DNA from: Cladocopium goreaui
Lineage: Eukaryota > Sar > Dinophyceae > Suessiales > Symbiodiniaceae
Length of the DNA stretch: 64,000 nucleotides
Direction: 5' to 3'
Assembly: GCA_947184155.2 (NCBI GenBank)
Contig: CAMXCT020001446.1
Span: forward strand, 1-64,000
Shown here: positions 9,829 to 55,303 of the stretch, one piece after another
Position numbering within the stretch: the first letter of the stretch is position 1
Layout: the number at the start of each line of letters is the position of its first letter
The notes under the pieces: generated by a model
Databases searched by the model: none
The model's input: only the letters and a program-made list of their open reading frames with translations
Told to the model about the DNA's origin: nothing
Made by a program: the position numbers and the translations under genes

Positions 9829-9924
9829 GCAGGTACGTAACAAAGGCGTCCCTTCGTCATATCACCATGGAAAGGCAGTGTCTTCGTTGGTGGATGACTG
9901 CCAGACCATGCATCCACCCCTTGC
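9829..9924 (-). ncRNA. Pseudoknot motif PK1
   Basis: On the plus strand it runs from GCAGGTACGT to CCTTGC. The first hairpin is ACAAAGG/CCTTCGT, with one A-C that becomes G-U on the minus strand. Pseudoknot stem X is GGCAGT/ACTGCC and stem Y is GGTGGATG/CATCCACC, in the interleaved order X-Y-X'-Y'. TTCGTT lies between X and Y. The closing stem is imperfect in this copy. Confidence 0.65.
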
Positions 9925-10418
9925 AAATGTGAGATAAAAACAAAGGAAGTTTTACATCTGTTCAGATGTTACACACACACACTAGACAAGAATGGATCAC
10001 TATATGATCCGGCAGGAACTGAATCCTGAAACATGCAAACCAGCCTAGGTTATTTAATGAATAAAAGAGCCACAAGAGGTACATCTCGAAAACGATGTAG
10101 GGCATCCGATATTGTCAAACGTAGTCATAACCAGATTCCATAGAGTATTTTGACCAGCATGTTGAAATCCAAAATGATCTTTCGGCGATTGTTTCCCAAA
10201 ATAACCCAGAGTTCGTCGGCGACAGGATCTCCGCGAAAATAAGTCAAAAAACATAATACTGTCGGCGATATGGTTTCGGCGAAAATCTGAGGAAGGTTCT
10301 GATGCATGTAAATCTCAAAAATGATTCCAGATTGCGACAACAGTGCAGTAAAGTGAAATTGTCAAATAAACGACGCGGAGGTTCTTGGGTTCAGCCTCTT
10401 CCCATTCCAGTAAGATTG

Positions 10419-10514
10419 GCAGGTACGTCAGAAAGGCGTCCCTTTCTGATATCACAGATCAAGGCAAGTGTTTTTGTTAGTGCCAGACTTGCAATGATCC
10501 CTGGCACCCCCTGC
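10419..10514 (-). ncRNA. Pseudoknot motif PK2
   Basis: It runs from GCAGG to CCTGC. The hairpin is TCAGAAAGG/CCTTTCTGA (9 bp), stem X GCAAGT/ACTTGC and stem Y GTGCCAG/CTGGCAC. The usual CTTCGTT linker is degenerate here (TTTTTGTTA). Nearly identical to PK3. Confidence 0.68.
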
Positions 10515-10570
10515 AAATTTGTGAAAACCAATCAGAAGTTTTACATCTGTTCAGATGGTACACACACACA

Positions 10571-10600
10571 CCTCGCATGTAGCGAGGTTGGTTTTTTTTG
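10571..10600. other. Hairpin CCTCGC/GCGAGG with T-run next to (CA)n
   Basis: A 6-bp hairpin (10571-10576 with 10582-10587) directly follows the (CA)n tract, and a run of eight T follows it on the plus strand. An equal hairpin stands at 26664-26680. Different 6-bp hairpins occupy the equivalent place at 23702 and 39454. It lies about 90 bp beyond the ORF8 stop, so it may mark the 3' end of the element or a processing site. Confidence 0.5.
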
Positions 10601-10680
10601 GAAGAACTTCGCTGGCGGAATCGGCAAGATACCAGTGAAAATGAACCTGTAAGATCCTAATGCACAAACGGGCGGTCACT

Positions 10681-11406
10681 TCAATCAGAAGAGGAATTCG
10701 GAGCTTGTAGAAGGACTTCCATAGCATCGTGGAAGCTCATGCGTTCAACCATCGCCCAAGTCTGATCGAATGCCCCAGATGCCGTAGCAGCCTTCAAGGT
10801 ATCAGATAGATCTTTGGCTAATTCATGGATCCGGGTGGTCAGGCTTGGTTCATCGCCAGGAGATGTCGTCTCAATGGGCACATTGTGAAAAGGATGGTGT
10901 CCGTGTACAAGGGGAATCTCAAAATGATGTCGCCAATAGTCCGCTGTGCACAGGGACCACTCCCAGTTGCCCGAGAGACCATAAAAATAGTGTTCAGGGT
11001 CACGACATCGGGAATGCCCTAACAAGGGAATTTCTTCAATGAATAGCTCCCTGGTGTTGTTGGAGTGGGTAATGACCTTGAATTGGATCTGGTGAACCAC
11101 GCGAGAAGAGAATTGAGCACGATGGAGGTAATTGTGTGTGGAACTTGACTCCATCGGAAAAGGAACGCCAGGAGGTACTGGTGCTGAATATGTATCAGAA
11201 TGGGCCATAGTATCCGTAGCAGGTGCCGTACTGTCAGTTACCAAAGGTGCCGACGTAGGGTTGGTCGTAGTGTCAGGAGCTCCTGAGTGACATAGTGCAG
11301 AAGGCTGGATGTCTGGTACGTGAACTGGGTTGGTAGGAGCGAGTCCACGAGTAGGATTCGAAGGCCAAGACAAGCCCGCCAGGGTCGCGTCTCGTTTGTG
11401 TTCCAT
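10681..11406 (-). CDS. Copy 2 ORF8, small element protein (241 aa), intact
   Basis: The family is not recognised. The first 85 residues are Ala/Thr/Pro/Ser-rich low complexity. The conserved part starts near VVHQIQFKVITHSNN and includes ELFIEEIPLLGHSR, EHYFYGLSGNWEWSL and ADYWRHHFEIPLVHG. The C-terminal 70 residues look helical. ORF6 of the same element has matching landmarks in the same order (VH....K, N..EL....E, then ANHWRRHYDVP), so I read ORF6 and ORF8 as paralogues. The start is MEHKRDA. An upstream in-frame stretch with a hydrophobic segment opens only with TTG and is treated as leader. It is the last ORF before the 3' noncoding array and ends in TGA. Confidence 0.78.
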   Translation of the reverse strand: MEHKRDATLAGLSWPSNPTRGLAPTNPVHVPDIQPSALCHSGAPDTTTNPTSAPLVTDSTAPATDTMAHSDTYSAPVPPGVPFPMESSSTHNYLHRAQFSSRVVHQIQFKVITHSNNTRELFIEEIPLLGHSRCRDPEHYFYGLSGNWEWSLCTADYWRHHFEIPLVHGHHPFHNVPIETTSPGDEPSLTTRIHELAKDLSDTLKAATASGAFDQTWAMVERMSFHDAMEVLLQAPNSSSD

Positions 11407-11676
11407 GGGTGAAAATGTCACAAATGCGAGAAATGCGAGAAATAGTGCAACAACGGCTGAGGTATCAAGAATAGCAGAAAAAAGCCAATATCGAGCATGA
11501 TAAAATTCACAAAATTGACAAAAGTGAAGTCCAGACCTCAATCAATTGGTTCAATTGCGACGGATAAGCTACTGCGCAAAGTCAAATAAAATAAGAATCA
11601 AAGAATCCTTGGTGTTGGTGGGGAGTCAAGGGAGAATTGAAACCCTGTAGCATGGTTTTTTCCGCCGGCTAGCGTA

Positions 11677-14850: not shown

Positions 14851-15022
14851 GACAATGCGTCGAATATGGGCCAACAAGTAAATGAAGCCGAGTTTGAGGG
14901 TAAGCCAGCTGGAAAAGCACTATTCCGTGATCAAATAAATTCTAATAAGGTCCAAAAGGTGAAACGTTCAGCAAGGTGTGAGTAATGAAACGTAAGCACC
15001 AGCGGCAAGACGGTTCAGGATT

Positions 15023-17782
15023 TTACCACAGTGAGGAAACGTGCAAATATTGACGAATCGGCTTGGCGGCAGCGAAAAGATCGGACTCGAGAAAACCTGC
15101 AGATCTGTACAAACGATGCAATGCGGCAAAACCTCGTGTTCGTTCATGTGCAGGGTGCGCGCATTTGGCGACCAGAAATAATCGTGAAACAAAGCCTGAA
15201 AGTTGGACGGCCAAAGGTGATGCGGAGAATGGCGCCATGACCTGGTTGAAGTCGCGTGGAGGGCTGTAGCGAAGGGCAAAAGGCTCGAACTCGATGCAAA
15301 AGCCCAAGAACTCCTGGTCCGGTTCCGTCTCCAAAATGATAGGATGGCCGTAGAATTCCGGGTGGAGGAAATTGGCGAAGCAGATTTCGTAGTCCCACGA
15401 GGGGTCCGACAAGCACAGTCTGTTGTCCACATAGCGAAGGAGGCGAGCTGTAAGATCCATGTTGCTGAGGGTGGTGCGGTAGGTTCGGTACCAGATCTCT
15501 TCAGACAGTGCGACAACCATCATGCACAATGCTGGACTGAGTGGGGAGCCCATGGGGGATCCTCGGATTTGTTCAAAAACCGTAGTGCCAATGGAGAATT
15601 GAGTCATTTTCAAGGACATAAGGATGATTCGTTCAATGTCCCGAATGAAGATCTTCCTTGTCACATTGAGTGTACGGCATGTGCGGCCTTTGACTACGTC
15701 CCCTGTGTGGTTGCCCGGAGTTGCCTTCACGGAGATGATCTCGTCGGGGTCGGTGTTCATGAGGGTCGAAAGGAACTGTAAGGTCAGTCGCCAGCTCGCG
15801 ATGAAGCGGTCGGTGTCAATGCTTGTGAAAAAGCCCGCAAGATCTTGGTTGTGTATGCGGGGAGTGGGGAGCGAGTCGAAGTCGGTGTCCTTGAGGAGCT
15901 TGATGAGATCAAATACATCACCCTTTGCCAGGTTGTGGGGAAACGCTTGGGGTAGAAGGTTGTAGATCAGCTTGGCAGTGCAGTTCAACATAGGTCGAAA
16001 AGGCGCCGTGAAGAAGCTGACAATGGGTCGTCCGGCCTTGAACTGCTTTTTCCGTTTGGGTAGAACATAGGCGTTCGGCAGGTCTCGTCCAGCACCAAGT
16101 GCCCATGGGTATGCTTTGCCAAAATGGCGGTTGATCTCGGCGATGGTCCGTTCGATGATGTCACTGGGGCTTTGTTCCAATTTGCGAAATACCAACGGGT
16201 CGGCGAAGGTGGTGGTGAGGCACTGGAAGTAGAGTACGGGGCAGTATATTCGTAGGGATGTAGCTCGCTTGTCCTCGTTGTGGAAGACGGCTTCTGGGAA
16301 AAGACGTTTGAAGCGGACGATGTCCTTGTGAGTGATGTGGTTGTTGAGTGTGTGGTAGTGGGATTGAATAGAACGATGCCAAAGCTCATCAATAAGGTGC
16401 TTTTGTATGGAAGGAAGTGAGTTCCGGGTGGTCCACGTCCGCAGAGCCAGGCGAAGCGATGTCTGGATTTCTTTGGAAGGTGGGAAGATTTTGTTTTGGA
16501 GCGATCCAGTCGCAATGGATGTGTGTGGGCCATCATCGAAATGTAGGTTGTCGCCGTCGAGGACCAGGTGGTGATCAGGTTGGAGACCATGAAGGGCATG
16601 AGGTCGCAAGGCATCACATGCACAATGTGGGGTTTCGTCATCAGCCCATTTGGTGGCGGCTTCTTTGTGATTGCACAAGCTGTCCATCACCGAGGGGAAC
16701 TTTGTGAAAACAATCGCCGTGGAAGGGTTCTGCAATGTGGTGTTGTAATGTCGAGTTTGATGAACGTGGGAAGTGAGCAGCCGTCGAAGATCCCGAGTCC
16801 AATTGGGGCATAGTAGCCAAGGGGCACGAAGAGGGACCGGTTTTCTGACTCGTTTGGCTTTCCAGAAGGTCAACGCTCGGTCAATGGCATTGACGGCATA
16901 CGACCTTTGGGGTTCTCCAAGGTTGTTGGCAAGACGTCGAATAAAGTAGCAGCCTTGAACTCCAATTTCGTTGGATCGTAATTTCTTCTCCATGTGGAAG
17001 CGTCGAACGGAGTTACTGCCCAAATCCTGGATAATCTCCCAAAGTTGTACTCGTCGATGGAAGAGAGGACTATGAAGAGCGTGTCGAACATGATGGGGTG
17101 TAGATCGCCACCGAAGTTTCCGCCACAAGGAGAATGCTCCAAATTGTCGAGAGGCGGAAAATTTGGTACGTGCAATGAGTCCCTTTCGGCAGTTGAAAAA
17201 CTGGTAAATGAACGGAGTGTTCAATCGAGGTTGCCACAGTTGAATTAAGGCCTGTTCCAAGGCCCAAAAGTTGGATTTATTGGTGTAGATCGGGAAAACA
17301 GACCACATCCAGAAATTGTCAAATCTACACCAAAACCGTAAGGCAACTTCGGCCAGCACGAATTTATGTTGTTGCACTTGCAGAAATTTCCGATAGCGAG
17401 AGTGTTCGCGGTCCAAAACAAATGAAGACGTGGATCCAATGTAAAACTTAGGTTGAAAATTCGCAATGTGGCAGAAACGAATATACACCGCCTGAGGATG
17501 CTTGAAACATTGGAGGGCGACAGACAAGTCATCCCAGGATCTGCAAAAGAAAATACTCTGCATCGGAGTGCCTTTCAGCAAGGCTTGGAGTTTCGGATTG
17601 GCCCGTGGATGTAATAACACATATTGGCCCATCAATACTGTTTGAAGCATCCGAAAAGCAAAAAAGACATCAACAGAAGGGGACAACGTGAAAGGAGTCA
17701 ATAGTGCGAGAACAAGAATACAGGAATGAGCCACGGCCAAAGTTCGCATAATGTTGGCTGCTTTTGAGCCAGGTGCTTTCAA
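15023..17782 (-). CDS. Copy 2 ORF3, GIY-YIG + Penelope-like RT, intact
   Basis: Same architecture and length (919 aa) as copy 1. The differences are scattered single-residue changes, with no indel. The catalytic landmarks are all present: FYIGSTSS in the GIY-YIG region (the more canonical YIG, against YVG in copies 1 and 3), ALEQALIQLWQP, motif A DLAGFFTSID, GSPMGSPLSP, RYVDNRL and FLGF. The Tyr-Val-Asp-Asn form is again seen. The frame stays open upstream for four codons (CTA GCA GCC TAT) to the ORF2 UGA. The first ATG is 11 codons inside (IMRTLAV). It ends in TAA, about 175 bp before ORF4. Confidence 0.88.
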   Translation of the reverse strand: MKAPGSKAANIMRTLAVAHSCILVLALLTPFTLSPSVDVFFAFRMLQTVLMGQYVLLHPRANPKLQALLKGTPMQSIFFCRSWDDLSVALQCFKHPQAVYIRFCHIANFQPKFYIGSTSSFVLDREHSRYRKFLQVQQHKFVLAEVALRFWCRFDNFWMWSVFPIYTNKSNFWALEQALIQLWQPRLNTPFIYQFFNCRKGLIARTKFSASRQFGAFSLWRKLRWRSTPHHVRHALHSPLFHRRVQLWEIIQDLGSNSVRRFHMEKKLRSNEIGVQGCYFIRRLANNLGEPQRSYAVNAIDRALTFWKAKRVRKPVPLRAPWLLCPNWTRDLRRLLTSHVHQTRHYNTTLQNPSTAIVFTKFPSVMDSLCNHKEAATKWADDETPHCACDALRPHALHGLQPDHHLVLDGDNLHFDDGPHTSIATGSLQNKIFPPSKEIQTSLRLALRTWTTRNSLPSIQKHLIDELWHRSIQSHYHTLNNHITHKDIVRFKRLFPEAVFHNEDKRATSLRIYCPVLYFQCLTTTFADPLVFRKLEQSPSDIIERTIAEINRHFGKAYPWALGAGRDLPNAYVLPKRKKQFKAGRPIVSFFTAPFRPMLNCTAKLIYNLLPQAFPHNLAKGDVFDLIKLLKDTDFDSLPTPRIHNQDLAGFFTSIDTDRFIASWRLTLQFLSTLMNTDPDEIISVKATPGNHTGDVVKGRTCRTLNVTRKIFIRDIERIILMSLKMTQFSIGTTVFEQIRGSPMGSPLSPALCMMVVALSEEIWYRTYRTTLSNMDLTARLLRYVDNRLCLSDPSWDYEICFANFLHPEFYGHPIILETEPDQEFLGFCIEFEPFALRYSPPRDFNQVMAPFSASPLAVQLSGFVSRLFLVAKCAHPAHERTRGFAALHRLYRSAGFLESDLFAAAKPIRQYLHVSSLW

Positions 17783-17794
17783 ATAGGCTGCTAG

Positions 17795-19099
17795 TCAGGA
17801 TTGCATCAATAACGCCACCGTCATGACCTTGAGGACTACTTCATCCGTGGAGGCCCCCTTGTGCTTGCAAGGGTCGATACCCATAGCCACGCTTGCGCGT
17901 TGGATAGTTTTCGAGGCATCATCGGGTTGGTTTTGCCACCATTCATTGACCTTCTCCAAGTTCTTCTCCAGGATGTCCTGTTTGGGCTGTGGTAGCTTTA
18001 AGGCTTTCAACCACTTGGTGTATTGAGTGTCCGACAATGATGTGGGTTGGTTGTCAACGAGCCAAGTGTTCACGGAGCCCGGAGAGATAAGCAGAGTTGA
18101 GGGTTCAAAGGTCGTAGACGCGGCAGGTTGTCCTTGAAGTGCACGTCCTATCGGTGTCGTGGCTGGAGTGGAGCCCGGAGGTGCCGTAGCTGGTGAGGCA
18201 GTAGCTGCCGATTTGACCTTGGCCAGTTCTGCCTCCAGTTCGAGAATGCGTTGTTGGCTGGCCACGTCAGCCGAAGGTTGAGTCGGAAGCCAAGATTGGA
18301 TAAGTTGAGCAACATCTTTGGCCATGTTTTGGGTAGCCTCCTTTTGGTTGAGACATTGGCCTGCTGAACGAGCTCGGAATGAAGCAAGTTTGTCCAAGTC
18401 TACGTTGCGGGTGCGTAGTTGGGATACCAATTTGGCCACAAATACTGTAGTGCCTATGTTGTCAAAAGGAAGGACGAAGGTTTCCCTTCCGTATGCAACT
18501 CGACGAAGCCAAGTATTGTGTAAGCCCTGGTACAAGAACTTCCAGAGTGGGACTTGTAAAGGATCCATCCCTTCAATGTCCTTGTAGCTTGAAAATCTGC
18601 TCTGTCGGATTCTGGAAGGGAAGTCCAAACCATTGATTTTGTTGGAGTCGTGGAAGTCGACATCCGGCTTCCAGTTCTCCACTGGCGGGATTTCAATTGG
18701 TCTGCATGTATATCCTTCGTTGACAGAGGAACTTGCTCCTGGGGATGACATAGGTCTCGGTGATCTCGGTGTAAAAGGGTGACGTTGAGGTGCAAGGTTG
18801 GCGTGGTTGGGAGGTGTCTGTGAGCTCGGAGGCGGCGTGGGCGGGAAAGGTGCCGTAGGTGAAGTCCATGGTGGGCGTGTTGGGAACGATGGAGACGTAG
18901 GCGGCGGAGGCGGTATTCCGGAAGGGTTCCAAAAGGGTCGATGGGTCGTCATGGCATAGTGCATCGGGCCACGGAACGCCGGTACTGCTTGGTGCCATCC
19001 ATGTTGATGACGAGGTGGTGTGCGCGAGCGATCCGGCTGAGAAGGAGGAATTCCATTCATATCCGCGCTGTATTGAGAGATCAGGTCCTGGGACGCCAT
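17795..19099 (-). CDS. Copy 2 ORF2, Gag-like protein (434 aa), intact
   Basis: It matches copy 1 ORF2 in length and order of regions. The Pro-rich N-terminus varies most, and the globular part from RPIEIPPVENWKPDVDF to LDKLASF is nearly unchanged. The coiled-coil-like QQRILELEAELAK is kept. The ATG at 19099 (MASQDLISQYSAD) was chosen because it is shared. The frame happens to be open 75 codons further upstream in this copy only. It ends ..VALLMQS followed by UGA CUAG, with ORF3 in the same frame. Confidence 0.83.
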   Translation of the reverse strand: MASQDLISQYSADMNGIPPSQPDRSRTPPRHQHGWHQAVPAFRGPMHYAMTTHRPFWNPSGIPPPPPTSPSFPTRPPWTSPTAPFPPTPPPSSQTPPNHANLAPQRHPFTPRSPRPMSSPGASSSVNEGYTCRPIEIPPVENWKPDVDFHDSNKINGLDFPSRIRQSRFSSYKDIEGMDPLQVPLWKFLYQGLHNTWLRRVAYGRETFVLPFDNIGTTVFVAKLVSQLRTRNVDLDKLASFRARSAGQCLNQKEATQNMAKDVAQLIQSWLPTQPSADVASQQRILELEAELAKVKSAATASPATAPPGSTPATTPIGRALQGQPAASTTFEPSTLLISPGSVNTWLVDNQPTSLSDTQYTKWLKALKLPQPKQDILEKNLEKVNEWWQNQPDDASKTIQRASVAMGIDPCKHKGASTDEVVLKVMTVALLMQS

Positions 19100-19443
19100 G
19101 ATGTAGCGAGGGTCACGAGATGATAGATCAAAATGCGCTCGAACTGCCGAAGGAAAGCTGCGGAAAATGTCGAGGTGAGACAAGGGTAATGTGAAATTGA
19201 AAAGGTGTGAGACATAATACGTGGTCCCAGTGTGTGAAACGTGAAGTGAAAACGAATCGGTGAAAGGATCAACAATATGAGCATGCAGCGATTCACAAAC
19301 CTTTTGAGGAAGAAGTGGCGGCAATACCGAATGTCGGGAGAAGCATTGTTACTCCAAAATGATCGGGCGGGGCCACTAGGCTCACTGTATCGCTGACGTA
19401 GAATAGTCGATACTAGTTCCGGTGCTTCTCAAGGGCAAAGAGT

Positions 19444-22065
19444 TCACCAACGAGATCGAGAGTAGTGGGTCGAATGTCGAGAACGAGGTCGGCCTTCATG
19501 ATGCTGGTCACGAGAGTGGTCTTCCTGGTATGAGGATCGGCGATCTCGGTGGTTGTAGGTTGAATTGTCCCAAGAGGCATTGTCGTGCCAAGATCGGCGA
19601 GCATAGTCCCGAGAGCCAGAGGTCGCGGTTTCGCGGTGGCTCGGTGTGTCGCGAGAGTCGTCCGGGGCCGGCTCCGAAGGTTCAGGGGCGTCGGCAGAGG
19701 GGTCAGGTCGTACTGGACGTGCAGAATCATCAGGAGGTTCCGAAGGTGCATTGGTCTCTGCAGTCTGGTGTGTGATCAAGCCCGGGAAAACCGTGTGAGT
19801 GGAGGCAACGTAGCATATAGATGCGGCGCTTGAGTTCATAGCCGTTGCATTGTCTTTGCCCTTGGCGATGCCCGCAAGGTTGCACAAGCGTTGGATTTGG
19901 TCATTTCCTCCAGCTAGGGCGCGGATGCATTTGGGTGAGCGGCATATGGCCATTAGGCCTGAGGGGTTTTGTCCTTTGCCTATTTTGTAGAGCTGAGAGG
20001 TACAGATCTTGACAGCATAGCCGGGTAGGTGGTCGATGTCTGCGATCTCTGAGGACATTCCGAAGAACCCGTAACATGGGTATTGAGTCGGCATGCCGGC
20101 TTCGTTTTTGGTCCAAGTTGCCGGGCGAATGCAGTCTTCCGCAAGAATTTTGGCAACTGATTCCCAACTTGTTTTGTGGTAGATCAGGTAGGTGCCCATG
20201 TGTTCGCCACGGTAGATTGGTTTCTTCTTCAGTCCTGTGGGAACCGTGATGGTCAGCAAGTTCTCCGGCTCGATGTAGAAGGCTTGTGTTTGCCTTGCGA
20301 GTTCGATGTCCAGTAAGTCGGATTGTGCAAAGGCCCTGGCAATATTCCTGACGGTGGCTTGGCTTGCTTTGATGTAAATACGATGGTTGTTGACGGTGCG
20401 GTATGGTTGAGCCAACCTTTCGAACATCGCGTCCACAAACTGGTTGAAGAGCTGCGAGATAGCCGGGGTCAATGATCGGCGTAGAGGAACAACATGATCG
20501 GGGTCAAGTTCAGTCAGGCAACGGACCCTATGGGGGTCATTGGCCGCCGCCACCATTTCATCGAGGTCGATGTCATTCGTGTCAAACTTGGTGAGCGAAA
20601 TTGTATCTGTAAATTCAGAATTTTCACTGTCGCCGTCCGGAACTCGGAAGGACACCGCGCCGAGTGGTGCTGAAGTGTGGGTTGGTGGGTTGGTTGGTGG
20701 TTCCGTTGGTGGTGGACCGGCAGGAGAATTGGGTCGAGGATTGTGGTGATGGTCGTTGTCGGTGTAGTGACTGTCGTTCCATGTACCCCAGGTGTCATCA
20801 GCATCGGGAGTGGGGATGTAGTTCGGATTCGATGGGTTCGCAGCTGGTCGAAGTATGACTTCACGGCCTCTGGATCTGTGACGTGGTGTCGCGGAACGTG
20901 GACGTGGGCGAGATCGATGACGTCGAGGGACCGCGGGAGAGCGGCGTCGTGGTGGGGAGCGTCGTCTGTATGGAGATGGAGTTCTGCGGCCTTTGTCGGG
21001 TTTTGTGGATGATCGATGACGAGGGAGAGGAGAACGAGGTCGCTCTGCTCGTGGAGGAGAATGGCGATGGCGATGAGAATGTACCGAAGGTCGATGGGAA
21101 CGTGGTCGTGGAGTCCTGGATCGTGGCCTGCGTGTTGGGGATAATGGAACTGGTAGTGGGTGAGGAGGAGCAATGGCTGGGACTTGAACAATGCGAAGGT
21201 CTGGAACGTCAGGCTCGGTAGGTCTGGCTTTCGGTGCGGGTGGAGGTGTGGCTGTCAGTGGTGGCACGGGCGTAGGTGGTGGTATGTGTGGAATAGGGTT
21301 CGGTGGAGGTCCATCTTGTTGGAGAAGTAGCTGACGTTGTTCTTGGGCCCGTTGAGTATCCATGATCACCTGTTGCTGGGCTTGAATAAGTCGAACCGAT
21401 TCCGCAAGTTGTTGTGTAGTGGAACCCAATGCAACCAGTTCGGGTGGCACGGATGACGTCGGTGCTGCCTTGGGTGCTGGTGGTGTAGTCGAAGAAGGGG
21501 CTTTTGAAGCTGGCCTGCGCGGTCGATCCATTCTTTTGTCAGAGCGAGGTCTGGGAGCTGCCTTAACTGCAGGAGGCCGTGGAGGATGTTCATCTGGAGA
21601 AACCATCAATGCGTTCGTTTGTAATGGAGGTTGAATGTGATGGGGTGGGTAAGGGGAACTTGGCAAAGGTGTCGGTGGCATAGTCGATGTAGGTGGTGGA
21701 GTCGACGTAGGAGATGAAGTCGGAGGAGAAGGCCAGGCAGGTGGAGCGGTAGGTGCCGAAGGAGATGGGAAAGTCGAAGGAGCGGTGTGCGCCATCGTGG
21801 GTTCGGAGGCCAAAGGTGCAGGCATGGTGGGTACGAGCTGTGGGCCTGGTACTGCATGAGGAGCTGGAGACAATGAGGTAAACGGCAACGATGTTGGGGA
21901 TGGTGTAGACGGCATGATCGAAGCTGAAGAAGACCATGTAGGATGCAAGGCTGAAGGATGTCCAAATAGATGTACGTTCTGTGATGATTGCGGCCACGTC
22001 GAAGGTGCGTTCGTAGGCTGCGGTGGAACAGGCCATGACGTTGGCGGAGGGTTCCACGGATGCAT
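19444..22065 (-). CDS. Copy 2 ORF1, Pro/Arg-rich protein with ART-like block (873 aa), intact reference copy
   Basis: The best-preserved ORF1 in the window. Pro-rich 1-300 with a Gln-rich patch (QLAESVRLIQAQQQVIMDTQRAQEQ split by Asp/Thr) near 220-250. An SR-like domain at about 310-410 (YRRRSPPRRRSP, PRHRSRGRE) resembles splicing-factor RS domains or a nucleic-acid-binding basic tail. The conserved domain follows from ILRPAANPSNP to the ART-like segment (YHKTSW, TQYPCYGFFGM) and CRSPKCIRALAGGNDQIQRLCNL. A charged RS/His tail closes it (HSRDQHHEGRPRSR). It starts at MHPWNPPPTSW (22065), 35-45 bp downstream of the conserved leader module. Confidence 0.8.
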   Translation of the reverse strand: MHPWNPPPTSWPVPPQPTNAPSTWPQSSQNVHLFGHPSALHPTWSSSASIMPSTPSPTSLPFTSLSPAPHAVPGPQLVPTMPAPLASEPTMAHTAPSTFPSPSAPTAPPAWPSPPTSSPTSTPPPTSTMPPTPLPSSPYPPHHIQPPLQTNALMVSPDEHPPRPPAVKAAPRPRSDKRMDRPRRPASKAPSSTTPPAPKAAPTSSVPPELVALGSTTQQLAESVRLIQAQQQVIMDTQRAQEQRQLLLQQDGPPPNPIPHIPPPTPVPPLTATPPPAPKARPTEPDVPDLRIVQVPAIAPPHPLPVPLSPTRRPRSRTPRPRSHRPSVHSHRHRHSPPRAERPRSPLPRHRSSTKPDKGRRTPSPYRRRSPPRRRSPAVPRRHRSRPRPRSATPRHRSRGREVILRPAANPSNPNYIPTPDADDTWGTWNDSHYTDNDHHHNPRPNSPAGPPPTEPPTNPPTHTSAPLGAVSFRVPDGDSENSEFTDTISLTKFDTNDIDLDEMVAAANDPHRVRCLTELDPDHVVPLRRSLTPAISQLFNQFVDAMFERLAQPYRTVNNHRIYIKASQATVRNIARAFAQSDLLDIELARQTQAFYIEPENLLTITVPTGLKKKPIYRGEHMGTYLIYHKTSWESVAKILAEDCIRPATWTKNEAGMPTQYPCYGFFGMSSEIADIDHLPGYAVKICTSQLYKIGKGQNPSGLMAICRSPKCIRALAGGNDQIQRLCNLAGIAKGKDNATAMNSSAASICYVASTHTVFPGLITHQTAETNAPSEPPDDSARPVRPDPSADAPEPSEPAPDDSRDTPSHRETATSGSRDYARRSWHDNASWDNSTYNHRDRRSSYQEDHSRDQHHEGRPRSRHSTHYSRSRW

Positions 22066-23034
22066 CGCTTCAGTAGATCAAAACAAAGGTGAACAATTGT
22101 AAAAAGTTTCACATACAGGATTCAGTCCCTAACTGCCTAAGATGTCGTGCAATTATTCCCTGCACCGGGACCGTGGTCAAGTCGTGCCGCAATGGCATAA
22201 AACAGCTTCCAAATTCCAACGAATTAGATGCACAAAATGTTTCACCTCACCAAAAACCAAAGAGACCACACCTGCAGGAAAAGGACATGCCTGTTGCCTT
22301 TTGTCGTGAATGTCATGTTGAACTTCAAATGCGCAAGCTGCAGTGATAAAAAAGGTTTCTGGTAGTTCGAAGCAGCTTCACTTGAAAGATCAGATCACTG
22401 GGATCCCTGGGACAGCCGGGACGGCAGGACTTCTCAAAAAAGGTGCAGAACAGAACGGCCATCTGTTGCACATTACGTAAACGAATTACCAAATTAAAAT
22501 GTGTGAATTCAGAATTCAAGACTGTCAACACTCACCCTGAAAAGGGTTGCCTCAATTGGCTCCATGGCACCATGTCGGAGCCACCATGGAAATCACACTA
22601 GACAAGAATGGATCATTATATGATCCGGCAGGAACTGAATCCTGAAACATGCAAACCAGCCTAGGTTATTTAATGAATAAAAGAGCCACAAGAGGTACTT
22701 CTCGAAAACGATGTAGGGCATCCGAAATTGTCAAACGTAGTCATAACCAGATTCCATAGAGTATTTTGACCAGCATGTTGAAATCCAAAATGATGTTTCG
22801 GCGATTGTTTCCCAAAATAACCCAGAGTTCGTCGGCGACAGGATCTCGGCGAAAATAAGTCAAAAAACATAATACTGTCGGCGATATGGTTTCGGCGAAA
22901 ATCTGAGGAAGGTTCTGATGCATGTAAATCTCAAAAATGATTCCAGATTGCGACAACAGCGCAGTAAAGTGAAATTGTCAAATAAACGACGCGGAGGTTC
23001 TTGGGTTCAGCCTCTTCCCATTCCAGTAAGATTG

Positions 23035-23130
23035 GCAGGTACGTCAGAAAGGCGTCCCTTTCTGATATCACAGATCAAGGCAAGTGTCTTTGTTAGTGCC
23101 AGACTTGCAATGATCCCTGGCACCCCCTGC
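23035..23130 (-). ncRNA. Pseudoknot motif PK3
   Basis: Almost identical to PK2 (hairpin TCAGAAAGG/CCTTTCTGA, X GCAAGT/ACTTGC, Y GTGCCAG/CTGGCAC). One difference lies in the X-Y linker. Confidence 0.68.
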
Positions 23131-23462
23131 AAATTTGTGAAAACCAATCAGAAGTTTTACATCTGTTCAGATGGTACACACACACACACACTTGCTCAGA
23201 ACTGTCTTATCGAACTTTATTGTGGAATGCATCTTACGTGCAAAACAACTTCAGTAAAACCTGACAGGAGTGGGTCAATGATACGACCCGAGAAATGTGC
23301 AACATGTTCCCTGTGAACAGATTGCGAAAACCGTACAGGCACTGAAATGACATGGAACGGAAAACTGAAAGTTTGGTTTGGTTTTACACAGTTTGAAATA
23401 CAAATCGGCACGGTGGTTCTTGGGTTAGCCACGTCCCATTGCAGAAAAATTGAAGTGATGAA

Positions 23463-23557
23463 GCAGGTACGTCACGAAGATCGGCCGTGATATCCTAAGG
23501 ACACCATAGAGAGCTTCGTTGGGCACAGCTCTATGGGCCTTCTGTGCCCCCCTTCTG
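23463..23557 (-). ncRNA. Pseudoknot motif PK4
   Basis: Hairpin TCACG/CGTGA. X CCATAGAG/CTCTATGG and Y GGGCACAG/CTGTGCCC, both 8 bp with no mismatch. The linker AGCTTCGTT is between X and Y, and X' follows Y immediately. The 3' closing strand is CCTTCTG. Confidence 0.72.
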
Positions 23558-24851: not shown

Positions 24852-24944
24852 GCAGGTACGTCACGGTGATCGGCCGTGATATCCTAAGGACACCATAGAG
24901 AGCTTCGTTGGGCACAGCTCTATGGGCCTTCTGTGCCCCCCTGC
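24852..24944 (-). ncRNA. Pseudoknot motif PK5
   Basis: Same X and Y stems as PK4, but the hairpin is extended (TCACGG/CCGTGA) and the closing pair GCAGG/CCTGC is perfect. Confidence 0.72.
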
Positions 24945-25396: not shown

Positions 25397-25488
25397 GCAG
25401 GTACGTCACGGTGATCAGCCGTGATATCCGCATGTACTGTGGCCGCTTCGTTGGACCATCGCACACAGTACATGGATGGTCCCCCTGC
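25397..25488 (-). ncRNA. Pseudoknot motif PK6
   Basis: Stem X is 11 bp (CATGTACTGTG/CACAGTACATG) and stem Y 8 bp (GGACCATC/GATGGTCC). The sequences are unrelated to those of PK4/5 although the hairpin and GCTTCGTT linker match. It is one of the clearest covariation cases. Confidence 0.75.
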
Positions 25489-25887: not shown

Positions 25888-25979
25888 GCAGGTACACACC
25901 GGAGCGTCCCCCAGTGCATCCCCCGTCATATCCCAGCTTCATTGGACCAGGTTGGAAATGACGGGCCTGGCCCCCCTGC
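25888..25979 (-). ncRNA. Pseudoknot motif PK7
   Basis: X CCCGTCAT/ATGACGGG. Y GGACCAGG/CCTGGCCC has one A-C on the plus strand that reads as a G-U wobble on the minus strand. The linker is GCTTCATT. The first hairpin is poorly formed, so this is a divergent class, also present as PK9 and PK11. Confidence 0.65.
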
Positions 25980-26513
25980 ATTATTTATAAATATATATAT
26001 ATAAATCTAGGTTAGAAAGGGAGAAGGACGAAGAAAGAAAAAAAGGAAGAAGTTTTACATCTATGCAGATGTTACACACACACTAGACAAGAATGGATCA
26101 TTATATGATCCGGCAGGAACTGAATCCTGAAACATGCAAACCAGCCTAGAATATTAGAAGAATAAAAGAGCCACTTGAGGTACTGCTCGAAAACGTTGTA
26201 GGGCATCCGATATTGTCAAACGTAGTCATAACCAGATTCCATAGAGTTTTGACCAGCATGTTGGAATCCAAAATAATGTTTCGGCGATTGTTTCACAAAG
26301 TAACCCATGATTCGTCGGCGACAGGATCTCGGCGAAAATAGGTCAAAAAACATAATGCTGTCGGCGATATGGTTTCGGCGAAAATCTAAGGAAGGTTCTG
26401 ATGCATGTAAATTTTAAAATTGATTCCAGATTGCGACAACAGTGCAGCAAATTGTATAATATTGTGGTTGGGGTTCTTAGCTTGGCCCCTTGCTATGTCG
26501 GAAAAATACAAGC

Positions 26514-26606
26514 GCAGGTACGTCGGGATGATCAGTCCCGATATCACAATCTCAAACCACCGTCTTCGTTGGGCAGTGGATGGAATGAGATTCACTGCCC
26601 CCCTGC
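26514..26606 (-). ncRNA. Pseudoknot motif PK8
   Basis: Hairpin TCGGGA/TCCCGA with loop TGATCAG. X AATCTCA/TGAGATT, Y GGGCAGTG/CACTGCCC, linker TCTTCGTT. Same variant as PK10. Confidence 0.72.
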
Positions 26607-26772
26607 AAATTAGTGAAAAACCAAAAAGAAGTTTTACATCTGTTCAGATGGTACACACACACACCTCGCATGTAGCGAGGTTGGATTTTTTGGAAGAACT
26701 TCGCTGGCGGAATCGGTAAAGCACCAGTGAAAGTGAACCTGTAATAACCTAATGTACAAACGAGCGATCACT

Positions 26773-31091: not shown

Positions 31092-33848
31092 TTACCACAA
31101 TGAGGAAACGTGTAAATATTGACGAATCGGCTTTGAGGCAACGACAAGATCGGACTCGGTAAAACCTGCAGCTCTGTACAAACGGTGCAATGCGGCAAAA
31201 CCTCGTGTCCGTTCGTGTGCAGGGTGCGCGCATTTGGCGACCAGGAATAATCGTGAAACAAAACCCGAAAGTTGGACCGTCAAAGGTGATGCGGAGAATG
31301 GCGCCATGACCTGGTTGAAGTCGCGTGGAGGGCTATAACGAAGGGCGAAAGGCTCGAACTCGATGCAAAAGCCCAAGAACTCCTGGTCCGGTTCCGTTTC
31401 CAAAATGATTGGATTGCCGTAGAACTCCGGGTGAAGAAAATTGGCGAAGCAGATTTCGTAGTCCCAGCTGGGGTCCGACAAGCACAATCTGTTGTCCACA
31501 TAGCGAAGGAGGCGAGCTGTAAGATCCATGGTGTGGAGTGTGGTGCGGTAGGTTCGGTACCAGATTTCTTCCGAGAGTGCGACGACCATCATGCACAGTG
31601 CTGGACCCAGTGGGGAGCCCATAGGGGAGCCCCGGATTTGTTCAAAAACCGTAGTGCCAATGGAGAATTGAGTCATCTTCAAAGACATAAGGATGATGCG
31701 TTCGATGTCCCGAATGAAGATCTTCCTGGTCACATTGAGTGTACGACACGTGCGGCCTTTTACTACGTCCCCGGTGGTGTTGCCCGGGGTTGCCTTAACA
31801 GAGATGATCTCGTCCGGGTCGGTGTTCATGAGGGTCGAGAGGAACTGCAATGTTAGGCGCCAGCTAGCGATGAAGCGGTCAGTGTCAATGCTTGTGAAAA
31901 AGCCCGCAAGATCTTGGTTGTGTATTCGTGGAGTGGGAAGCGAATCAAAGTCGGTATCCTTGAGGAGCTTGATGAGATCAAATACATCGCCCCGTGCCAG
32001 GTTGTGGGGAAGCGCTTGGGGCAGAAGGTTGTAGATCAGCTTGGCAATGCAATTCAACATTGGTCGAAAAGGTGCCGTGAAGAAGCTGACAATGGGTCGC
32101 CCGGCCTTGAACTGTTTCTTCCGTTTGGGGAGAACATAGGCATTCGGTAGGTCTCGTCCAGCCCCCAGTGCCCATGGGTATGTTTTGCCAAATTGGCGGT
32201 TGATCTCGGCGATGGTCTTCTCGATGATGTTACTCGGGCTCTGCTCCAACTTGCGAAATACCAACGGATCGGCGAAGGTGGTGGTGAGGCACTGGAAGTA
32301 GAGTACGGGGCAGTAGATCCGTAGGGATGTAGCTCGCTTGTCCTCGTTGTGGAAGATGGCTTCTGGGAAGAGACGTTTGAAGCAGCCGATGTCTTTGTGA
32401 GTGATGTGGTTGTTGAGGGTGTAATAATGGGATTGAATAGAGCGGTGCCAAAGCTCATCAATATGGGACTTTTGTAGGGAAGGGAGTGAGTTCCGGGTAG
32501 TCCACGTCCGCAAAGCCAGGCGAAGCGATGTCTGGATTTCCTTGGAAGGTGGGAAGATTTTGTTTTGAAGTGATCCAGTCGCAATGGATGTGTGTGGGCC
32601 GTCGTCGAAATGTAGGTTGTCGCCGTCCAGGACCAAGTGGTGATCGGATTGGGGAACGTGAAGGGCATGAGGTCGAAGGACATCGCAGGCACACTTTGGG
32701 GTTTCGCCATCAGCCCATCTTGTAGCGGCTTCTTTGTGATTGCACAGGCTGTCCATCACCGAGGGGAACTTTGTGAAAACAACTGCCGTGGAAGGAGTCT
32801 GCAAAGTGGTGTTGTAATGTCGAGTTTGATGAACGTGGGAGGTGAGCAGCCGCCGGAGGTCCCGAGTCCAGTTTGGGCATAGTAACCAAGGTGCACGAAG
32901 AGGAACCGGTTTTCTGACTCGTTTGGCCTTCCAAAAGGTCAAAGCTCGGTCGATGGCATTGATGGCGTACGACCTTTGGGGTTCTCCTAGGTTGTTGGCA
33001 AGACGTCGGATAAAATAGCAGCCCTGGACCCCAATTTCGTTGGATCGGAGTTTCTTCTCCATGTGGAAGCGTCTGACGGAGTTACTACCCAGATCCTGAA
33101 TAATCTCCCAGAGTTGTACTCGTCGATGGAAGAGAGGACTGTGAAGAGCGTGTCGAACGTGATGGGGTGTAGATCGCCAGCGAAGTTTCCGCCACAAGGA
33201 AAAGGCTCCAAATTGTCGGGAGGCGGAAAATTTGGTACGTGCTATGAGGCCCTTTCGGCAGTTGAAAAACTGGTAAATAAACGGAGTATTCAATCGAGGT
33301 TGCCACAATTGAATTAAGGCCTGTTCCAAGGCCCAAAAGTTGGATTTATTGGTGATCGGGAAAACAGACCACATCCAGAAATTGTCAAATCTGCACCAAA
33401 ACCGTAAGGCAACTTCGGCCAGCACGAATTTATGTTGTTGCACTTGCAGAAATTTCCGATAGCGAGAGTGTTCACGGTCCAAAACAAACGAAGACGTGGA
33501 ACCAACATAAAACTTAGGTTGAAAATTAGCAATGTGGCTGAAACGAATATACACCGCCTGAGGGTGCTTGAAACATTGAAGGGCGACTGACAAGTCATCC
33601 CAGGATTTGCAAAAGAAAATACTCTGCATCGGAGTGCCTTTGAGCAAGGCTTGGAGTTTCGGATTGGCCCGTGGATGTAATAACACATATTGGCCCATCA
33701 ATACCGTTTGGAGCATCCGAAAAGCAAAAAAGACATCAACAGAAGGGGACAACGTGAAAGGAGTCAATAGTGCAAGAACCAGAATACAAGAATGAGCCAC
33801 GGCCAAAGTTCGCATAATGTTGGCTACTTTTGAGCCAGAGGATTTCAA
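31092..33848 (-). CDS. Copy 3 ORF3, GIY-YIG + Penelope-like RT, intact
   Basis: 918 aa. One Tyr codon is missing next to FPI-TNKSNFW (in-frame 3-bp deletion) relative to copies 1 and 2, between the YVG and ALEQ landmarks of the endonuclease part, so it probably shortens a loop. RT motifs A, B (GSPMGSPLGP, with Ser to Gly at one place) and C (RYVDNRL) are kept. The frame is open back to the ORF2 UGA through CTA GCA GCC TAT, as in copy 2. Confidence 0.87.
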   Translation of the reverse strand: MKSSGSKVANIMRTLAVAHSCILVLALLTPFTLSPSVDVFFAFRMLQTVLMGQYVLLHPRANPKLQALLKGTPMQSIFFCKSWDDLSVALQCFKHPQAVYIRFSHIANFQPKFYVGSTSSFVLDREHSRYRKFLQVQQHKFVLAEVALRFWCRFDNFWMWSVFPITNKSNFWALEQALIQLWQPRLNTPFIYQFFNCRKGLIARTKFSASRQFGAFSLWRKLRWRSTPHHVRHALHSPLFHRRVQLWEIIQDLGSNSVRRFHMEKKLRSNEIGVQGCYFIRRLANNLGEPQRSYAINAIDRALTFWKAKRVRKPVPLRAPWLLCPNWTRDLRRLLTSHVHQTRHYNTTLQTPSTAVVFTKFPSVMDSLCNHKEAATRWADGETPKCACDVLRPHALHVPQSDHHLVLDGDNLHFDDGPHTSIATGSLQNKIFPPSKEIQTSLRLALRTWTTRNSLPSLQKSHIDELWHRSIQSHYYTLNNHITHKDIGCFKRLFPEAIFHNEDKRATSLRIYCPVLYFQCLTTTFADPLVFRKLEQSPSNIIEKTIAEINRQFGKTYPWALGAGRDLPNAYVLPKRKKQFKAGRPIVSFFTAPFRPMLNCIAKLIYNLLPQALPHNLARGDVFDLIKLLKDTDFDSLPTPRIHNQDLAGFFTSIDTDRFIASWRLTLQFLSTLMNTDPDEIISVKATPGNTTGDVVKGRTCRTLNVTRKIFIRDIERIILMSLKMTQFSIGTTVFEQIRGSPMGSPLGPALCMMVVALSEEIWYRTYRTTLHTMDLTARLLRYVDNRLCLSDPSWDYEICFANFLHPEFYGNPIILETEPDQEFLGFCIEFEPFALRYSPPRDFNQVMAPFSASPLTVQLSGFVSRLFLVAKCAHPAHERTRGFAALHRLYRAAGFTESDLVVASKPIRQYLHVSSLW

Positions 33849-33860
33849 ATAGGCTGCTAG

Positions 33861-38140: not shown

Positions 38141-38676
38141 CGCTCACGAAGAATCATGAAAAATAACGCAAATGCAACGACAGGATTCAGTTCCTAGACC
38201 TACTGTTCGTGCAATTGTGCCATAACAGGCCCGATGTCAGGTCGTGCCCCGATGGCATAAAACAGCTTCCAAGTTCCAACGAATTAGATGCACAATATGT
38301 TTCACCTCACCAGAAAACCAAAAGGAAGAATACCACACCTGAAAGTCGTGTGCCTGCCTGATTCATATGTCGTGATTTGATGCAACGGTGCTATAAAGTT
38401 GCTGCAAAAAACGGAGGTTTGTGGTTGTTCAGTACGGCATCCCGAGGAAGAATGCATCTCTCAAGGTTCTCATGGGACCGCAGGAGCAGCGGGACACTCA
38501 AAAAATGGTGCAGAACAGAAAGGCTGACTGTTTCGCTTTACTTAGATGAATTACTAAATTAAAATGTGTTAATTCGGCAGTCAGGACAGTCATCACTCAC
38601 CCTAAAAAGGGTTGCCTCAAATGGCTCCATGGCACCATGTCGGAGCTGCCACACAAGGGCCCAAGAGCGTCCCGAT

Positions 38677-38768
38677 GCAGGTACACACCGGAGCGTCCCC
38701 CAGTGCATCCCCCGTCATATCCCAGCTTCATTGGACCAGGTTGGAAATGACGGGCCTGGCCCCCCTGC
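38677..38768 (-). ncRNA. Pseudoknot motif PK9
   Basis: Same variant as PK7. It sits immediately after a junction that fuses the leader to the middle of an A-like module, so the 5' part of that module is missing here while the pseudoknot is complete. Confidence 0.65.
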
Positions 38769-39301
38769 ATTATTTATAAATATATATATATATAAATCTA
38801 GGTTAGAAAGGGAGAAGGACGAAGAAAGAAAAAAAGGAAGAAGTTTTACATCTATGCAGATGTTACACACACTAGACAAGAATGGATCATTATATGATCC
38901 GGCAGGAACTGAATCCTGAAACATGCAAACCAGCCTAGATTATTAGAAGAATAAAAGAGCCACTTGAGGTACTGCTCGAAAACGTTGTAGGGCATCCGAT
39001 ATTGTCAAACGTAGTCATAACCAGATCCATAGAGTTTTGACCAGCATGTTGAAATCCAAAATAATGTTTCGGCGATTGTTTCACAAAGTAACCCATGATT
39101 CGTCGGCGACAGGATCTCGGCGAAAATAGGTCAAAAAACATAATGCTGTCGGCGATATGGTTTCGGCGAAAATCTAAGGAAGGTTCTGATGCATGTAAAT
39201 TTTAAAATTGATTCCAGATTGCGACACCAGTGCAGCAAATTGTATAATATTGTGGTTGGGGTTCTTAGCTTGGCCCCTTGCTATGTCGGAAAAATACAAG
39301 C

Positions 39302-39394
39302 GCAGGTACGTCGGGATGATCAGTCCCGATATCACAATCTCAAACCACCGTCTTCGTTGGGCAGTGGATGGAATGAGATTCACTGCCCCCCTGC
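39302..39394 (-). ncRNA. Pseudoknot motif PK10
   Basis: Same variant as PK8: hairpin TCGGGA/TCCCGA, X AATCTCA/TGAGATT, Y GGGCAGTG/CACTGCCC. Confidence 0.72.
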
Positions 39395-40462
39395 AAATTA
39401 GTGAAAAACCAAAAAGAAGTTTTACATCTGTTCAGATGGTACACACACACACACTCGGCAGAAGCCGGGTCAACCCTGAAAGGCAAGAGGAAGAAAAAAG
39501 CGGACACACGACGGGCCGACGGCCAAAAAACAGCGCAGGAGGGGGAGGGGAACAGACGGACCTCCGGAACCAACCTACACGGCGAAACGGACCTGACAAA
39601 AACAGAGAACGCACCTGAACCCCACGACACATTACGGAGAAGCCGCCGGGAGGGTTATTTGGGACCAATGGGGATTAGTTGGTGAGGAAGCGGAAACAAC
39701 AAAATTAAAGGGACCCAGGTCCATTACTTAGAGGTCAAGCACGTTACTCCCTTGCCGGGACAGTGGTCAAGTCAAGCCACATGGGCATAAACGGCTGTTC
39801 AAGTTCCATCGAATTAGGTGCACAATATGTTCAACCTCACCAAAAACCAAAGAGACCACACCTGCAGGAAGAGGACATGCCTATTGCCTTGTCATGCATG
39901 GGCCATGTTGCTTGTCACAAGTTGGAGCTGGGAAAGGAATAGTTTCTGAATGTTCAGAACGGCTTCACGGCGAAGGAATGCAGATTCCAAGGGCTCACAA
40001 GGGACGATGGGAGCAGCAGGACGTTAAAAAAGGTGCAAAACCGTAAGGCCAACTGTTTCACTTTACTTAAACAAATTACCAGATTAAAATGTGTAAATTC
40101 GGAAGTCAAGTCAGTCGAAATTCACCCTAAACAGGGCTGCCTCAAATGGCTCCATGGCACCATGTCGGAGCCACCATGGAAATCACACTAGACAAGAATG
40201 GATCTTTATATCGATCCGATTGAGACCGGGGTCCCATGCATGCAACAACAGTGAATTGGAAAAAGGAGGAGATTGGTCCTGTTTGTTCATAATAGTAAGT
40301 CAACGTCGGCGAAAAGCAAAACCAGTAAATAAATACCTCGGCGAAATAGACGATCTCGGCGAAATAAATATATAAGAAGCGGGACCTCCAGCTGTCATTA
40401 ACGGACCCAGGAGCGTCCCCGGGACCCCCAGCTGCCACACAAGGGCCCAAGAGCGTCCCGAT

Positions 40463-40554
40463 GCAGGTACACACCGGAGCGTCCCCCAGTGCATCCCCCG
40501 TCATATCCCAGCTTCATTGGACCAGGTTGGAAATGACGGGCCTGGCCCCCCTGC
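40463..40554 (-). ncRNA. Pseudoknot motif PK11
   Basis: Same variant as PK7 and PK9, followed by a TA-dinucleotide tract and the ACATCT-ATGC-AGATGT hairpin near 40630. Confidence 0.65.
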
Positions 40555-40863
40555 ATTATTTATATATATATATATATAAATCTAGGTTAGAAAGGGAGAA
40601 GGACGAAGAAAGAAAAAAAGGAAGAAGTTTTACATCTATGCAGATGTTACACACACACACTTGACAGACCGTTTGTCGTCTATGAGTCACTTCTTGTTTC
40701 CCATCAAGGGATCTGGAGATTCCAGTTTAAGGCCTTTTTCAGCACAAAAGATTGAAACTGCTGTGATGAACTCTGTTCGAAAGAACTGCTGAAACGGATT
40801 CTGTTGTGTACATACTGAAGAAAAACAATCGCTCACTGAAACGGAATGAAATGACGAAAAACT

Positions 40864-40955
40864 GCAGGTACGTGGAGTTGGTCAGAGTCCATATCCTAGT
40901 CTACTGCATGGAGCTTCGTTGGCGACAGCCATGCAGCGACTCTGTCGCCCCCTGC
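40864..40955 (-). ncRNA. Pseudoknot motif PK12, divergent module
   Basis: X CTGCATGG/CCATGCAG and Y GGCGACAG/CTGTCGCC, both 8 bp with no mismatch. Linker AGCTTCGTT, closing GCAGG/CCTGC. The hairpin is only TGGA/TCCA. The flanks differ from the A and B modules, so this copy gives independent support for the structure. Confidence 0.74.
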
Positions 40956-55251: not shown

Positions 55252-55303
55252 AAAAAACTTGTTACACTTCTCGATTTGTGCGTGTCATCCTTGCGCAGGG
55301 GCC

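Follow-up and report, generated by a model that had tools for sequence, protein, structure and literature searches.

Penelope-like retroelements are related to telomerase, whose RNA contains a pseudoknot, and to our knowledge the way in which they recognise and process their own RNA is largely unknown. Members of the group that carry an N-terminal endonuclease are said, in work attributed to Craig et al. in 2021, to lack canonical hammerheads (core CUGANGA/GAA) and to prefer microsatellites. The structured RNA known from other Penelope-like elements is the hammerhead (PMC11167929), the hammerhead of Terminons lies beside the 3' telomeric repeats (PMC6431247), and Penelope-like elements are given as unreported in TSAR (telonemids, stramenopiles, alveolates and rhizarians) before Ectocarpus (PMC12477816). 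Here we describe, in a stretch of 64,000 nucleotides of the dinoflagellate Cladocopium goreaui (contig CAMXCT020001446.1 of assembly GCA_947184155.2; "the window"), an RNA motif of roughly 95 letters that sits in the roughly 570-nt pseudo-long terminal repeats (pLTRs) of a Penelope-like element and probably helps this element to copy itself.

An initial annotation of the window had counted 12 copies of the motif and proposed to check them with a covariance model. The sequence GCAGGTAC occurs 13 times in the window (1.01 ± 0.99 expected); 12 of these occurrences are motif starts, and the remaining one, at 8261 on the plus strand, is not. A covariance model (R1) returned exactly the same 12 copies and nothing else up to E = 1 over the whole window, all on the minus strand, 92–96 nt long and with E-values between 1e-17 and 2.3e-13, a recovery that is partly built in, 7 of the 27 model rows being classes present in the window. 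The copies fall into seven sequence classes, the others being near-duplicates made by the element itself: by start on the plus strand, 10419 = 23035, 23463 = 24852, 25888 = 38677 = 40463 and 26514 = 39302. The GCAGG and CCTGC that were said to bound every copy (outer helix Z) are damaged in two of the 12, those at 9829 and 23463. The 12 copies, with their cmsearch E-values, are:

9829..9924, minus strand: motif copy 1, of class GGTGGATG, with a damaged outer helix Z (E 8e-14)
10419..10514, minus strand: motif copy 2, located in the 3' pLTR of element I (E 1.7e-14)
23035..23130, minus strand: motif copy 3, which lies in the 5' pLTR of element I and shares the class of copy 2 (E 1.5e-15)
23463..23555, minus strand: motif copy 4, in a short element, Z damaged (E 1.6e-13)
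24852..24944, minus strand: motif copy 5, in the other pLTR of the short element of copy 4 (E 7.3e-16)
25397..25488, minus strand: motif copy 6, in an apparently solo pLTR (E 1.4e-15)
25888..25979, minus strand: motif copy 7, in an apparently solo second-type pLTR, with G.U for A.C in P3 (E 2.3e-13)
26514..26606, minus strand: motif copy 8, the reference copy, located in the 3' pLTR of element II (E 1e-17)
38677..38768, minus strand: motif copy 9, in a truncated second-type pLTR within element II (E 2.3e-13)
39302..39394, minus strand: motif copy 10, located in the 5' pLTR of element II (E 1e-17)
40463..40554, minus strand: motif copy 11, in a second-type pLTR (E 2.3e-13)
40864..40955, minus strand: motif copy 12 (E 1.9e-16)

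Read on the strand of the reverse transcriptase (RT) gene, the order of the fold is 5'-GCAGG-G-P1 (8 bp)-P2-P1'-AACGAAG-P4 (2 bp)-P2'-P4'-G-P3 hairpin-A-CCUGC, and the same fold recurs over 27 classes. Because P1 and P2, and likewise P2 and P4, are interleaved, the motif RNA is, as judged from its sequence, a double pseudoknot. In the reference copy its parts lie as follows:

26602..26606, minus strand: 5' strand GCAGG of the outer helix Z
26593..26600, minus strand: 5' strand of P1, 8 bp with 26571–26578
26579..26592, minus strand: 5' strand of P2, which is the P1 loop and pairs with 26548–26561
26571..26578, minus strand: 3' strand of P1
26564..26570, minus strand: conserved joiner AACGAAG
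26562..26563, minus strand: 5' dinucleotide AC of P4, paired with GU at 26546–26547
26548..26561, minus strand: 3' strand of P2
26546..26547, minus strand: 3' dinucleotide GU of P4
26520..26544, minus strand: hairpin P3, whose basal part holds U.G and A.C (or G.U)
26514..26518, minus strand: 3' strand CCUGC of the outer helix Z

P1 is fully paired (8/8) in 22 of 22 classes, with seven of its eight pairs altered on both sides. P2 measures 9–14 bp and takes up nearly the whole P1 loop of 13–15 nt; it begins at the first base of this loop in 26 of the 27 classes and at the second in one, and in 23 classes a bulge or mismatch breaks it. Both pairs of P4 are altered on both sides and 96.3% of its cells are paired, in the variants AC/GU, CU/AG, CU/GG, AU/GU, CG/CG, AG/CU and AU/AU; a mismatch occurs in 4 of 66 distinct copies, and in five of the 27 classes, four of them CU/GG, the 3' side of P4 could extend P2 instead. 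The joiner of the 66 distinct copies reads AACGAAG in 52, AACAAAG in 11, CACGAAG in two and AATGAAG in one, in a count that admitted only the form NA[CT][AG]AAG (other joiners exist). Near the base of P3, which is missing in one short class, U.G is present in 27/27 classes, A.C or another non-pair in 24 and G.U in three. Helix Z is paired in all 27 classes, the copies having been found through this very sequence; its one two-sided change, GCGGG/CCCGC, occurs in locus L079. The two interleaved stems X and Y of the initial annotation are real, with both stems longer than listed (Y is the 8-bp P1, and P2 is X plus extensions) and with the 2-bp helix P4 around P2' overlooked. Note that the apical loops of P3 in loci of this genome are of two types, a GACG tetraloop or a 7-nt YUGRYCA loop; the core of the latter, UGAUCA or UGGCCA, is self-complementary, and kissing dimers would therefore be possible.

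The same annotation had taken the compensating changes in the stems as a sign of a selected RNA fold, and comparison of own with shuffled partners (22 classes, 2000 shuffles) bears this out: pairing reached 176 vs 106 ± 6 for P1, 369 vs 114 ± 16 for P2, 251 vs 121 ± 12 for P3 and 43 vs 26 ± 3 for P4, and for none of the four helices did any shuffle attain the observed value. The borders of P1 and P3 in this test were picked on own pairing (for P1 the best out of four offsets, for P3 the best anchor), and P2 was scored by duplex energies with shuffled partners, counting in fixed columns having been dropped because its register shifts by one between classes. The 27-class alignment, in which classes were cut at a string similarity of 0.88 and each is represented by one row (in a few cases not the first listed member; all rows occur verbatim in genomic sequence), has a covariation score of 0.574 vs 0.141 ± 0.015 when shuffled and at most 0.086 when slid. 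In this alignment, the cells paired and the cells changed on both sides exceed those of 500/500 shuffles. The pairs with two-sided change (11 vs 8.9 shuffled; reached by 25/500 shuffles) and the further pair types (31 vs 28.9; reached by 114/500) are not extreme.

Wobble pairs bear on the strand, which the initial annotation had taken to be the plus strand. Among the 66 distinct, partly related copies, P1 contains 14 G.U and one A.C (6 and 0 by class) and P4 11 G.U and one A.C (5 and 1 by class); this large excess of G.U over A.C in both helices points to the opposite, minus strand, that is, the RT strand, as the strand of the RNA. The P1 count leans to this strand, since copies were kept on sense pairing with G.U included. 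Positions 4–10 of P3 are strand-neutral (30 G.U, 29 A.C), and minimum free energy z-scores of four copies favoured neither strand. The 66 copies were anchored on GTACCTGC and had to show at least 6/8 P1 pairs and one joiner pattern, stretches with N being dropped; such sample choices favour the fold, and model R1 itself contains P1. Altogether, the pattern of substitutions indicates that a sense-strand RNA fold is under selection, and the reading given in the initial annotation is supported in part.

We scanned the whole 1.166-Gb assembly (6,202 contigs) with two patterns, both requiring GCAGGTACGT and GATATC and the strict one also CCCCTGC. The strict pattern gave 1,212 matches vs 0 for the reversed control, a count that includes some sites twice (2 among 100 matches listed repeat a site), and the half pattern 1,365 vs 18; loci L001–L010 and L049 were excluded from copy counts. 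The copies are often paired, commonly 1–1.5 kb or about 12–13 kb apart and in some cases 5 or 8 kb apart. In 346 kb of genomic loci, mostly picked for holding the motif and so biased to motif copies, 97 of 111 distinct GTACCTGC sites carry P1 and the joiner; of the other sites, read by eye, eight are whole motifs with altered parts and six are unrelated. Candidates from IMG/VR were set aside: 10 loose matches are without a motif-like fold, six of them being one stretch, and the covariance model is silent on them; a strict match, L049 (19 bits, E 0.022 among 11 pattern-picked loci), is read as chance in coding DNA. An RT profile search of IMG/VR found none.

The fold matches no Rfam family at threshold. 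At gathering thresholds, Rfam 15 returned only a U6 spliceosomal RNA gene in the window (55253–55358, minus strand, 112 bits), with no hammerhead and no match to the motif, and neither a hammerhead nor any other match in 20 loci of the same genome (91 kb), in agreement with the initial annotation, which had matched the motif to no named family. Permissive searches gave two weak matches, both off the motif, in 4.7 kb with six copies, and three weak matches in six more loci (12.4 kb); none is a hammerhead and none is taken as real, and the nearest, SCARNA7 (E 0.37, 18.9 of 65 bits), overlaps one end of a motif copy in L106 and is read as chance. The literature searched on Penelope-like elements showed no such motif. 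With no match in Rfam or in this literature, the fold is, within the reach of these searches, regarded as new.

The motif is found in both pLTRs of the two large elements of the window and of short elements, where the copies lie about 1 kb apart, and it has the RT sense in every case with a neighbouring RT. The pLTRs of the large elements are:

9982..10557, minus strand: 3' pLTR of element I, to the end hairpin, identical at 569/576 positions to 22598–23173
22598..23173, minus strand: 5' pLTR of element I
26083..26650, minus strand: 3' pLTR of element II, identical at 564/567 aligned bases to 38872–39438
38872..39438, minus strand: 5' pLTR of element II

Near-identical pairs and pLTR series of this kind make up a tandem arrangement typical of Penelope-like elements; the pLTRs of the short element with motif copies 4 and 5 are identical at 492/500 positions. 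pLTRs also succeed one another via (AC)n stretches, and the window holds a chain of repeats on the minus strand. A short element in locus L018, in microsatellite-rich surroundings, consists of a pLTR, a 749-nt middle and a second pLTR; its middle has no stop-free run of more than 80 codons, and the motif is kept twice. In locus L050 (C97:43500–52000 of the same genome), four motif copies, all in the same orientation, are spaced 1.3–1.5 kb apart and may form a head-to-tail multimer. In element II, a second-type pLTR, truncated, separates the 5' pLTR from the body (within 38650–39440), and a full one follows the 3' pLTR (within 25612–26650), as if the terminal unit were two pLTRs.

Upstream in the sense direction, 60 of 95 placed copies have (GT)n and an end hairpin, 32 (GT)n only and three the hairpin only; at least three GT repeats lie within 300 nt upstream in 92/95, all of them occupied sites. 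The motif lies 15–121 nt from the GT-flanked end hairpin (60/95 copies) and 86–676 nt from the 3' edge of the pLTR (30/95 copies, where this edge is visible), and insertion ends are located upstream of the motif, at the hairpin and (GT)n. In a flank test made independently of the motif, for which 10 of 46 listed RT copies were taken, the motif was present in 8/10 5' flanks and 3/10 3' flanks, and 18/18 matches were in the RT sense. The 40 nt that precede GC[AG]GG are U-rich and G-poor (T 42–46%, G 7–18% in 57 non-redundant copies), a tract that, ending in GCAG|G, resembles a 3' splice site. A second covarying hairpin lies 21–64 nt downstream of the motif in 37 of 84 downstream regions (e.g. 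L027, L054 and L038), with a 4–5 bp stem (GTGG/CCAC, CCGG/CCGG, GGGG/CCCC or GAGG/CCTC) and a conserved loop near CYAAGCCNAGAA.

We tentatively read the motif as a docking signal by which the RT of the element would recognise its RNA, by analogy with telomerase and R2, a possible though by no means assured role. The small pseudoknotted RNA to which R2Tg binds is both required and enough for integration of that element (PMC12222951), and short copies would need a common recognition signal; docking seems the most likely role on these two grounds. The motif would then be a cis-acting RNA module of Penelope-like pLTRs, read on the RT strand. Given that P1 is constant at 8 bp and the joiner at 9 nt (AACGAAG plus two P4 bases), the A-rich strand may occupy the P1 minor groove, as such strands do in classical pseudoknots, and P2 would have to kink or alternate between states, because a straight unlinked P2 of 9–15 bp is judged on geometric grounds to be incompatible with P1 and P4. 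The telomerase-like RT protein would bind the fold and so select its RNA in cis, that of short copies being chosen in trans, and the selected RNA would be copied into (GT)n/(AC)n microsatellites. Helix sequences could drift freely, geometry and joiner being what the RT would read.

Several observations weigh against docking. Compact pseudoknots whose helices drift while the joiners stay fixed are just as characteristic of ribozymes; a straight P2 could not, in our geometric judgement, coexist with P1 and P4; and the RT model is of modest quality (predicted local distance difference test score, pLDDT, 66.8; predicted template modelling score, pTM, 0.44). The 3' flank test failed in 7/10 cases, the stretch being perhaps misplaced, and 2/10 5' flanks are without the motif. 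Moreover, the motif is closer to the 5' than to the 3' edge of the pLTR, while the signal of R2Tg is located at the very 3' end (PMC12222951), and an Anolis element needs RNA in the first 172 nt of its open reading frame (ORF; PMC11167929).

The chief rival reading is a new class of self-cleaving ribozyme that took the place of the hammerhead and cuts multimeric or read-through transcripts into units, which we consider rather unlikely. The hammerhead, the structured RNA of other members of the group, is absent at gathering score from the window and the 20 own loci, joiner bases are near-invariant while helices drift, the compact fold with its two interleavings lies on the sense strand of both pLTRs, and copies occur in series, as at the four sites of L050; on the other hand, no copy ends inside the motif among the 111 GTACCTGC sites, the insertion ends lie upstream at the hairpin and (GT)n, no Rfam ribozyme is matched, and 10/10 non-hammerhead candidate motifs failed to cleave (PMC10085705). 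The lack of insertion ends in the motif weighs only weakly here, because the Anolis Penelope hammerhead cleaves only with protein, its mutation leaves in vitro insertion unaffected, and the ends of insertions correspond to the sites at which the RT starts (PMC11167929). The full claim, namely a natural class whose double pseudoknot is built from a hairpin loop paired over almost its whole length, a helix of 2 bp and a joiner AACRAAG, which supplanted the hammerhead in a retroelement related to telomerase and of which a single dinoflagellate genome holds about a thousand copies, appears a little more doubtful still.

Dinoflagellate splice acceptors prefer AG|G, and the GCAG|G at the motif start, preceded by its U-rich, G-poor 40 nt, could be such an acceptor, the fold then starting the mature mRNA or hiding the acceptor as a splicing or 5' untranslated region element. 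We regard this as very improbable: the first 20 nt downstream are about equally U-rich, GCGGG copies, one with the compensating CCCGC of L079, have no AG there, and P1–P4 are left unexplained. Only marginally less improbable is a roadblock or stability element, akin to the ring of exonuclease-resistant RNAs, through which a strand would be threaded by the pairing of nearly the whole 13–15 nt P1 loop to the P4-closed strand, or else a translation signal, the latter being remote because the first large ORF of element I begins about 530 nt beyond the pLTR. That the inverted repeats are kept as DNA, as promoter or target sites, or by copying bias has next to no likelihood in our view; the energy folding of four copies and the even wobble counts of P3 would fit it, but the wobbles of P1 and P4 favour one strand (14:1 and 11:1), and interleaved stems, A.C/G.U exchange and a covarying 2-bp helix are unexpected in DNA sites. 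Docking to the RT remains the reading that we prefer.

The window holds three RT-coding stretches, which together with the upstream ORFs are:

15023..17782, minus strand: RT ORF of element I, with a GIY-YIG-like N-terminal region, CxC and a telomerase-like RT
31092..33848, minus strand: RT ORF of element II, 96% identical to that of element I
1947..4706, minus strand: RT ORF of another copy, at the beginning of the window, 92% identical
17795..19324, minus strand: upstream ORF in the frame of the RT ORF, with one TGA between
19444..22065, minus strand: first large ORF of element I, with a C-terminal domain without assigned function

The telomerase-like RT, a further Penelope-like trait, is seen in matches to RVT_1, which 23 of the 26 aligned members reach with E ≤ 1 (lowest 5.3e-5; 0.07 for the RT of element I), and in a Foldseek search of the RT model, where PDB ranks 1–8 are all telomerase (best E 3.1e-4, with template modelling scores of only 0.17–0.24). 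An N-terminal GIY-YIG domain is possible: Y114, G116, R125 and E176, which we take to be GIY-YIG residues, are near-invariant in the 26 aligned sequences, the Pfam family matches residues 99–185 at E ≤ 1 in two of them (best E 0.1, below the cut-off), and UvrC GIY-YIG appears in Foldseek only at E 3.3 or worse. C387 and C389 of the CxC are invariant in all 26. The RT has a relative in Durusdinium trenchii that is 65% identical (among 120 listed of 244). A divergent RT (P0106) was rejected as a second lineage: its at least 46 genome copies, 45–48% identical to P0106, apparently belong to the family of the window itself.

TGA-CTA-G is a readthrough context, and a single TGA in this context splits the in-frame upstream and RT ORFs at 17795–17797, 33861–33863 and 4719–4721 (minus strand); its being kept in three copies suggests programmed stop readthrough. 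At least one TGA lies somewhere inside the match in 44 of 46 listed genome RT copies. In the first ORF, a KptA/ADP-ribosyltransferase-like domain was considered because it would fit a cleavage-and-ligation cycle, and was rejected: the 240-residue C-terminal part has no Pfam match up to E 10, a PDB sequence search returned nothing, and the AlphaFold2 model (pLDDT 52.5) has a best Foldseek E of 0.81, a distant fold being possible given the poor model. At 14214–14855 and 1141–1854 (minus strand) lie small ORFs that show a Myb/SANT-like domain weakly, with E about 0.001.

These data record a Penelope-like element that is abundant in an apparently alveolate genome, and provide a large natural set of one fold (1,212 strict matches, 27 classes) with strong covariation. 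Docking, if true, would make the motif an RNA-recognition pseudoknot new to the retroelement relatives of telomerase; self-cleavage, if true, would make it a new ribozyme class.

In Pistol and hepatitis delta virus (HDV)-like ribozymes, a hairpin loop is pseudoknotted with a downstream strand, and HDV has a 2-bp helix; the motif shares both features, but its order, Z P1 P2 P1' P4 P2' P4' P3 P3' Z', is different and finds no Rfam match. The present element resembles the N-terminal-endonuclease elements Chlamys and Naiad in the possible GIY-YIG before the RT, the CxC, the pLTRs, the microsatellite flanks and the lack of a detected hammerhead, and differs in its length of about 12 kb, several extra ORFs, its dinoflagellate host and this RNA fold. 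With the R2Tg 3' untranslated region RNA and the telomerase RNA pseudoknot, the motif has in common a small pseudoknot that accompanies an RT of the target-primed or telomerase-like kind; here, however, there are two interleavings, a fixed 8-bp P1, an almost fully paired loop and a 2-bp P4. The hammerhead motifs of Penelope-like elements are likewise structured sense-strand RNAs in the terminal region of the same retroelement class, whereas the topology is another one here, with no hammerhead core seen, no Rfam match and, in the copies measured, a position 15–121 nt in from the 5' pLTR edge. Compared to the non-circularly permuted hammerheads (PMC10085705), which also combine two pseudoknots with covarying stems, the motif shows no hammerhead core and has other joiners, and compared to Terminons the order is reversed, the repeat preceding the motif.

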